DNA of 64,000 nucleotides from positions 992,001-1,056,000 of the forward strand of contig NZ_CP145809.1 in the NCBI RefSeq assembly GCF_038049925.1, in the 5' to 3' direction. Source of the stretch: Georgenia sp. M64. GTDB lineage: Bacteria > Actinomycetota > Actinomycetes > Actinomycetales > Actinomycetaceae. How positions within the stretch are numbered: position 1 is the stretch's first letter; every line of letters starts with the position of its first letter. The notes below the pieces were generated by a model. It did no database searches. It was not told where the DNA came from and worked only from the letters and a program-made list of their open reading frames with translations. Positions 28,415-29,228 of this stretch are shown here, in pieces. A program made the position numbers and the translations under genes.

Positions 28415-29140
28415 TCACTCGGCGGGCGCCGCGGGCTCGTCCGTCGGGCCGGCCGCCGGCTCGTCCGTCGGAACGGCAGCGGGCTGCGCGGCGAGCTCGG
28501 CGTGCCGGGCCACCGCGAGCGCGGTCGGGGCGGCGGTCACGGCGGCCGCGGCCTTCCGGGCGGTCGCGGAGTCGGGCCCGTCCCCGGCGGGGAAGAGGAC
28601 CGAGCGGTAGTACCGCAGCTCGTCGATGGACTCGAGGATGTCCGCCAGCGCGCGGTGCCCGCCGTTCTTGGCGGGGGACTGGTAGTAGGCACGGGGGTAC
28701 CACCGCCGGGCGAGCTCCTTGATGGAGGAGACGTCGATGATGCGGTAGTGGAGGTGGTCGACCAGCTCGGGCATGTCCCGCGCGAGGAAGGACCGGTCGG
28801 TCCCCACGCTGTTGCCGGCGAGGGGGGCCTTGCGCGGCTCCGGCACCCATCGGCGGACGTAGTCGAGGACGGCGCGCTGAGCGAGCTCCATGGTGGTCCC
28901 GCCGGCGAGCTCGTCGAGCAGCCCGGACTCGGTGTGCATGGTTCGCACGACCTCCTCCATCTGCTCGACGCTGCCGGGCGTGGGGGCGATGACGACGTCG
29001 ATGCCGGCGTCGAGCGGGGTCAGCTCGGAGTCCGTGACGACGACGGCGACCTCGACGAGGGCGTCCTTGACGAGGTCCAGCCCGGTCATCTCGCAGTCGA
29101 TCCAGACGATCGGGTCCTGGGGGGAGGGGTTTCGGCTCAC
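28415..29140 (-). CDS. orn: Oligoribonuclease
   Basis: Orn degrades 2-5 nucleotide RNAs, including pGpG from c-di-GMP turnover. The DEDDh exonuclease core is intact (IVWIDCEMTGLDL with Asp15 and Glu17; NSVGTDRSFL; SSIKELARRWYP; GGHRALADI). The last 50 residues are an extra Ala-rich tail containing repeated PTDEPAA units, beyond the usual length of about 200. The only possible start is the GTG at 29140, one base after the 3' end of tRNA-Arg and without a Shine-Dalgarno sequence. Confidence 0.95.
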   Translation of the reverse strand: MSRNPSPQDPIVWIDCEMTGLDLVKDALVEVAVVVTDSELTPLDAGIDVVIAPTPGSVEQMEEVVRTMHTESGLLDELAGGTTMELAQRAVLDYVRRWVPEPRKAPLAGNSVGTDRSFLARDMPELVDHLHYRIIDVSSIKELARRWYPRAYYQSPAKNGGHRALADILESIDELRYYRSVLFPAGDGPDSATARKAAAAVTAAPTALAVARHAELAAQPAAVPTDEPAAGPTDEPAAPAE

Positions 29141-29141
29141 G

Positions 29142-29214
29142 TGCCCCCAGCAGGACTCGAACCTGCAACCTACGGATTAGAAGGCCGTTGCTCTATCCAT
29201 TGAGCTATGGGGGC
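29142..29214 (-). tRNA. tRNA-Arg (anticodon UCU)
   Basis: A 73-base cloverleaf with acceptor GCCCCCA/TGGGGGC, D-arm CTCAATGGATAGAG, anticodon loop CTTCTAA (UCU), T-loop GGTTCGAGTCC and discriminator A at 29142. CCA is not encoded. The next two positions downstream are a C and then the GTG of orn. Confidence 0.95.
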
Positions 29215-29222
29215 GCCGGTCA

Positions 29223-29228
29223 ATCGTA
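29223..29228 (-). promoter_or_regulatory. -10 box of the tRNA-Arg/orn transcript (TACGAT)
   Basis: TACGAT fits TANNNT and ends 8 bases before the first base of tRNA-Arg. It is the only promoter I can see for orn, as the tRNA occupies all upstream space. Confidence 0.55.

Follow-up and report, generated by a model that had tools for sequence, protein, structure and literature searches.

In animal mitochondria the transcripts are punctuated by tRNAs. In Escherichia coli, tyrU...tufB is read as a tRNA-mRNA co-transcript, and such mRNAs keep a leader and a ribosome site after the tRNA. According to three reports, 264 mRNAs of Streptomyces have leaders of less than 10 nucleotides (nt) (PMC4681348), mycobacteria possess leaderless mRNAs (PMC4633059), and in Thermococcus kodakarensis sR44 is co-transcribed with a tRNA-Arg, its release being likely due to ribonuclease Z (RNase Z) (PMC4247193). 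Here we analysed a stretch of 64,000 nt of the genome of Georgenia sp. M64 (contig NZ_CP145809.1, positions 992,001 to 1,056,000; this whole stretch is called the window), in which the start codon of orn, the gene for oligoribonuclease, directly abuts the 3' end of a tRNA-Arg(UCU) gene. We consider it quite probable that this junction represents a bacterial form of tRNA punctuation, in which orn would be co-transcribed from the tRNA promoter, released by the tRNA 3' cut and translated as a leaderless mRNA.

All the elements of the junction are on the minus strand. A -10-like box TACGAT (29223..29228), presumed to be the tRNA-Arg promoter, is followed by 8 bases, by the tRNA-Arg(UCU) body through its discriminator A29142 (29142..29214), by C29141 and then by the GTG (29140-29138) of orn (28415..29140). 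The tRNA was detected by ARAGORN and by Rfam RF00005, with its end placed at 29142; its acceptor stem reads GCCCCCA/TGGGGGC, and it is the single copy of tRNA-Arg(UCU) among the 47 tRNA genes of the window genome (G000). The orn frame consists of 241 codons from this GTG, and its product matches PF00929 and the NCBIfam equivalog NF003765 (245 bits against a curated cut-off of 106, residues 8-191). As the GTG is the sole in-frame ATG, GTG or TTG between the upstream stop codon and the catalytic motif WIDCEM, an alternative start codon was ruled out. An earlier note made on this DNA had given the discriminator at 29142, a single C and then the GTG, in which the sequence and ARAGORN agree; its statement that CCA is not encoded was borne out, since the C is followed by GTG, and the TACGAT that it had described is present, the sister genome G001 having TACGCT at this position. 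A sigma-70 consensus scan of 28200-29340 yielded no promoter (TACGAT was not matched) and no terminator, which reflects the consensus more than the site. On inspection of the sequence, the protein start is directly at the tRNA 3' end and no promoter lies between the two, as in tRNA punctuation.

A start codon located exactly at position 75 of a tRNA is found only for orn, that is, at 1 of the 47 tRNA genes of G000, and in G464, a genome of the genus g7, orn is again alone in having ATG, GTG or TTG at this position among the 34 tRNA genes examined. A long GTG frame after tRNA-Leu(CAA) starts one base later, but by reading of its letters the beginning of the encoded protein does not resemble a genuine N-terminus. 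In the predicted fold of the junction the tRNA acceptor stem is closed and the first 13 bases of orn are unpaired; past them a three-pair hairpin is present in the minimum-energy form and absent from the centroid, and the fold energy is no better than that of shuffles (z -0.83).

To describe how orn is usually preceded, we compared 157 distinct orn contexts of 164 loci, comprising 142 non-abutting and 15 abutting ones. Six loci (L085, L087, L089, L133, L222 and L264) were dropped because the 120 bases round their cores were those of another locus, and L242 because it is too near a contig end. Of the 142 non-abutting contexts, 135 have a TAnnnT whose end lies 4-9 nt ahead of an in-frame start; in four control bands further upstream the numbers are 9, 13, 4 and 1 of 142. 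The placements, 136 in number, are strongly concentrated: 83 are at 6 nt, 42 at 7, 9 at 8 and one each at 4 and 5, so that 134 are at 6-8 nt from the start. The promoters of the relatives are thus placed so that transcription would begin at the start codon, and as a rule orn appears to be positioned to be leaderless from a promoter of its own. The box is missing from seven non-abutting contexts (L054, L144, L161 and L238-L241) and from all 15 abutting ones. In G003, of the same genus as the window genome, 36 bases follow the tRNA-Arg and TACGCT stands six bases before the orn GTG; the window junction looks like this arrangement minus the spacer. In the g7 relatives G117, G255 and G266, a hairpin and then a T-rich stretch, read by eye, separate the tRNA from an orn that has a box of its own, and resemble a terminator. 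The letters upstream of orn are identical in G002 (L087), a genome of the window's genus, and Georgenia ruanii (L004), and the closest relatives that bear a name are species of Georgenia, in line with the assignment to this genus. Those of L068, from a record titled Vibrio cholerae strain 35D, resemble Arthrobacter loci, and this record is probably a mislabelled or mixed assembly.

The distance between the two genes was determined for contexts with a tRNA-Arg upstream of orn on the same strand and no more than 200 nt from the Orn core. From C74 to the start it is 0 in 15 contexts, and the next values are 16, 16, 16, 17, 17, 20 and upward; 23 of the 24 contexts with a non-zero spacing carry a -10-like box before orn. 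For L095, a locus outside the 157-context table, a spacing of 15 nt was read by eye. We also constructed a search pattern in which the tRNA T-loop is joined to an Orn motif and ran it on the genomes of the order, the family and the class; it has room for spacers of up to about 11 nt, zero included, when the N-terminus has the length found in the window, of up to about 14 with that of g7 and of more than 20 with that of family f44. Distances of 1-14 nt were seen neither among the spacing contexts nor among the pattern matches in order, family and class. It seems from these sequences that the gap is either wide enough for a promoter or absent, the start then sitting exactly at the tRNA end. The spacing across relatives, which the earlier note had set beforehand as a test, does vary, yet in its non-zero cases orn nearly always comes with a -10-like box of its own, at the distance suited to a leaderless transcript. 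Chance closeness of orn and tRNA-Arg was ruled out by the sole position-75 start among 47 tRNA genes in G000 and 34 in G464 together with the empty range of 1-14 nt.

The pattern matched 3 of the 396 genomes of the order (1 abutting), 7 of the 213 of the family (6 abutting) and 17 of the 394 of the class (12 abutting, the window genome included). A total of 17 genomes have the abutting junction, 6 of the 213 in the family set and 11 further ones of the 394 in the class set; they are G000 and its sister G001 in the window's genus, 4 of the 10 genomes of g7 (G463-G466), and 11 genomes of 1.3-1.8 megabases (Mb) in the genera g155 and g231 of f44. The tRNA at the junction is tRNA-Arg(UCU) in all 17. 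G466 reads identically to the Actinomycetaceae metagenome-assembled genome SUG2173 (L080). The -10-like box of tRNA-Arg begins 45-62 nt upstream in the abutting g7 loci (L133, L134, L136 and L138), with a foldable leader, and 24-25 nt upstream in three non-abutting g7 relatives.

The single C between the discriminator and the GTG is not peculiar to this tRNA. The discriminator is followed by C in all 47 tRNA genes of the window genome, in all 34 examined in G464 (where Rfam finds 41) and, taking every locus compared, in 297 of 297 distinct tRNAs; the same was obtained with the ends taken from Rfam coordinates instead of ARAGORN (30/30 and 29/29; 1 of the 60 loci was left out at a contig end). 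At position 75, C is found in only 24 of 47 (G000) and 10 of 34 (G464), and a full CCA is encoded by 12 of 47 and 5 of 34 tRNA genes, respectively. As a control, cyanophage S-PM2 has a C after the discriminator in 7 of 16 tRNAs, a 17th having been omitted for poor pairing and all 17 coming from one stretch; from a second S-PM2 stretch, with tRNAs annotated in the record, ARAGORN gave none. An artefact by which ARAGORN forces a C at position 74 was ruled out by the Rfam coordinates and the 7 of 16 in S-PM2. Since C74 is encoded throughout while position 75 varies, and the S-PM2 control reaches only 7 of 16, we read C29141 as part of the tRNA, namely its position 74, and the constant C74 next to a variable position 75 points to an actinobacterial 3' cut that leaves C74 on the tRNA, so that the cut would be expected on the 3' side of C29141. 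Most CCA-encoding tRNAs of Streptomyces are cut between the two Cs (PMC4681348). Because the C is an encoded position 74, and the cut known from CCA-encoding Streptomyces tRNAs is made on the 3' side of this base, a leader of zero bases is more likely for orn than the one-base leader proposed in the earlier note, which a cut at the discriminator would leave. In G464, five tRNA genes (L184, L185, L200, L207 and L213, for Ile, Tyr, Val, Met and Arg-CCT) share a near-identical trailer, (a/g)(a/c)cgaggag(a/c)ttttt(g/a)atcc(g/a)aa(a/c).

The history of the junction was followed on a tree of Orn from 92 of the 157 contexts, 14 of them abutting, which was built by a quick method, contains several long branches and leaves the place of G827 unsure. 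The abutting label requires 6 changes on this tree, of which branches with good support force 3 or more, and 0 of 500 label shuffles were as low as six. Most simply, the three forced changes would be separate gains of the abutting state; one gain and two losses are possible in principle, and separate gains are favoured because nearly all the non-abutting contexts carry a promoter-like box. For the orn pair of G000 and G001 the synonymous divergence (dS) is 0.166 and the nonsynonymous divergence (dN) 0.014; for abutting g7 pairs dS ranges from 1.2 to infinite (saturation) with dN of 0.06-0.17, and for f44 pairs from 0.94 to saturation with dN of 0.09-0.16, the distant G827 standing apart with a dN of 0.47. 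These values indicate purifying selection on orn in the lineages with the junction, where gene and junction have both been kept; as the junction was kept while the synonymous sites of orn became saturated, orn should be a working gene there.

Taken together, the following course of events may be proposed. The ancestral orn would have been leaderless, with its own -10 box about 6-8 nt before the start and RNA polymerase starting on the start codon or just beside it. In the lineage of the window the orn promoter would have been lost, and the start codon would have come to begin at the base after C74 of tRNA-Arg(UCU). The tRNA promoter TACGAT would then drive a tRNA-Arg/orn co-transcript, and a tRNA 3' endonuclease cutting after C74 (or after the discriminator) would free an orn mRNA whose leader has 0 bases (or 1 base), to be translated by leaderless initiation, whereby tRNA 3' processing would take over the place of the transcription start. 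Since one and the same cut would yield both a working tRNA and a working mRNA, loss of the orn promoter by deletion was probably viable only where it brought the start codon onto the cut site, and the all-or-none spacing could be explained in this way. Judged on the spacing and the missing box, the release of orn mRNA from a tRNA-Arg/orn co-transcript by tRNA 3' processing, which the earlier note had predicted, appears the most likely account. A bolder version is somewhat less likely than not: that actinobacteria have a tRNA 3' endonuclease, in several lineages not RNase Z, which cuts after C74, and that this one cut has repeatedly replaced the orn promoter and so made the amount of Orn depend on the synthesis and processing of tRNA.

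The earlier note had expected RNase Z to make the cut. This enzyme is encoded in the window genome (G000:C1:4120782-4121657; NF000805, 428.5 bits against a cut-off of 416), and with the Georgenia protein as query 35 of the 213 family genomes match at 1e-8, 27 of them at 1e-70 or better, the matches including 9 of 9 genomes of the window's genus. In the searches made in g7 and f44, for which TIGR02651 and the Georgenia protein were the only RNase Z models run, 0 of the 10 g7 genomes reached 1e-8 with the protein, the best profile matches in six g7 genomes were partial, with no canonical RNase Z, and 18 f44 genomes, including all eleven abutting ones, gave short profile matches or none. The best match in G463 is cyclic-nucleotide-degrading phosphodiesterase-like (212 bits against a cut-off of 400), and its flanking genes may be read as murI and rph. 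In G464, 29 of the 34 tRNAs examined are without a full encoded CCA. The window itself carries at 3826-4620 a protein of the metallo-beta-lactamase fold that is cyclic-nucleotide-degrading phosphodiesterase-like (209.5 bits, cut-off 400), with a weaker likeness to RNase Z. As a necessary part of the process, RNase Z was rejected for g7 and f44 as far as the searches reach. Judging from the genes found, RNase Z may act in Georgenia, but as a general rule it fails unless the searches missed a divergent form; the expectation of the earlier note is compatible with Georgenia, where the enzyme is encoded, and does not carry over to g7 and f44, where the junction is the same and no canonical one was found.

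Several points weigh against release of orn by the tRNA 3' cut. What the sequences show is the abutment itself, the lack of an orn box, a spacing that is either zero or wide, the repeated changes of state and the purifying selection on orn; co-transcription, the position of the cut, the enzyme and translation are inferred. In two of the three abutting lineages the searches made found no canonical RNase Z. The -10 test behind the 135 of 142 contexts is a loose motif without a -35 element, and these contexts are related, so that the counts are not independent. Most of the abutting contexts (10 of 15) came from a search for closeness, so 15 of 157 is no frequency: the abutting share is 1/80 in the unselected set and 1/6, 3/28, 10/15 and 0/28 in the four other source sets, of which those giving 3/28 and 10/15 consist partly or wholly of genomes picked for tRNA-orn closeness. 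As to the cut, PMC4681348 also describes several CCA-less tRNAs that are cut a few nucleotides downstream; tRNA-Arg(UCU) is of the CCA-less kind, and a cut of this sort would therefore remove the start codon of orn. RNase Z mostly cuts just 3' of the discriminator, according to PMC10673834, and such a cut would leave one base on the orn mRNA. Finally, 5 of the 15 abutting contexts, that of the window among them, contain within the tRNA gene a TAGGTT, possibly a weak -10 element, whose end is 26 nt from the start.

This TAGGTT is the basis of the rival explanation that survives best, although it is still unlikely: that orn has a promoter inside the tRNA gene, giving a leader of about 20 bases in which the GGGGG of the acceptor strand, 4-8 bases ahead of the orn GTG, serves as a poor Shine-Dalgarno sequence. 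However, in the other 10 of the 15 abutting contexts no TAnnnT ends between 4 and 33 nt ahead of the start, and the acceptor strands of f44 end in CAGGCGC (CGGGCGC in G827) and so offer no GGGGG, which in the predicted folded tRNA is paired in any case. Moreover, L091 has the same tRNA letters and yet an own orn box downstream of the tRNA; the letters were therefore not made for orn.

It is a little less probable again that ribosomes initiate internally on the uncut tRNA-orn transcript, so that processing would destroy the mRNA and orn output would be what escapes it. The failure to find a canonical RNase Z in two lineages would suit this explanation, but it has no need of a start exactly on the base after C74, spacings of 1-14 nt would be expected and none was seen, and the 135 of 142 other orn contexts are placed for a leaderless start. 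Least probable of the three is tight packing without function, in which the spacer was deleted, orn is weakly expressed by leakage and the zero spacing is coincidental: deletion would be an easy route, tRNA-Arg and orn adjoining in many relatives, and the genomes with the junction in f44 and g7 are of small size (1.3-2.1 Mb), but the window genome of 4.18 Mb is not compact, at least three changes to or from the abutting state are forced, with identical zero spacing and an empty 1-14 nt range, orn is under purifying selection, and no other start at position 75 exists among the 47 (G000) or 34 (G464) tRNA genes. Release by tRNA 3' processing thus remains the reading that we prefer.

Downstream of orn lies tRNA-His(GUG) (28255..28329, minus strand; ARAGORN), which the earlier note had thought might be on the same transcript. 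A TATGCT box, presumed to be a separate promoter of tRNA-His, is present at 28364..28369 on the minus strand and is found upstream of this tRNA in 9 of 9 genomes of the window's genus, which makes a shared transcript less likely; tRNA-His is probably transcribed separately from orn, to judge by this box. The consensus scan revealed no terminator-like site between orn and tRNA-His, so that read-through may occur. Convergent with both genes, a D-cycloserine synthetase DcsG-like protein is encoded at 27198-28109 of the window (214.8 bits, cut-off 360). Elsewhere in the window, tRNA-Leu(UAG) (10584-10666) is followed by 26 bases and then by an ATG frame of 228 codons running from about 10557 downwards, with GAGGAGG before it; this frame is possibly another tRNA-led gene, one with a ribosome site.

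No prior report of a tRNA/orn junction was found in the open-access literature searched, most subscription papers being outside its scope, and that literature likewise gave no earlier report of tRNA punctuation united with leaderless mRNA for a bacterial protein gene. If our reading is true, the junction would show clearly that in a bacterium tRNA processing can stand in for the initiation of transcription, a leaderless mRNA could arise by cleavage, without a primary 5' end, and the amount of an RNA-turnover enzyme would depend on how tRNA is made and processed. Some close relatives have an orn promoter and others lack it, which constitutes a built-in natural experiment, and the junction offers a direct read-out for the actinobacterial tRNA 3' cut site, discriminator or C74. 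It also raises the question of which nuclease matures CCA-less tRNAs in those actinobacteria where no canonical RNase Z was found.

The orn junction may be compared with the systems described at the outset. As proposed for sR44/tRNA-Arg, a tRNA 3' cut would free a second RNA, although the RNA freed there is small, non-coding and archaeal. As in tyrU...tufB, a protein gene would be read from a tRNA promoter, but a leader and a ribosome site are kept there, whereas nothing stands between the tRNA and orn here. With the leaderless mRNAs of actinobacteria it would have in common a start codon at the mRNA 5' end, for which the -10-like box of orn in the relatives is placed accordingly; the difference is that the 5' end of orn would come from RNA cleavage and not from a transcription start. 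In animal mitochondrial tRNA punctuation, likewise, tRNA 3' cleavage sets the 5' end of a nearly leader-free mRNA, while in the bacterial case one gene would be released behind one tRNA instead of from a genome-long polycistron, and the junction occurs also in lineages in which no RNase Z was found.
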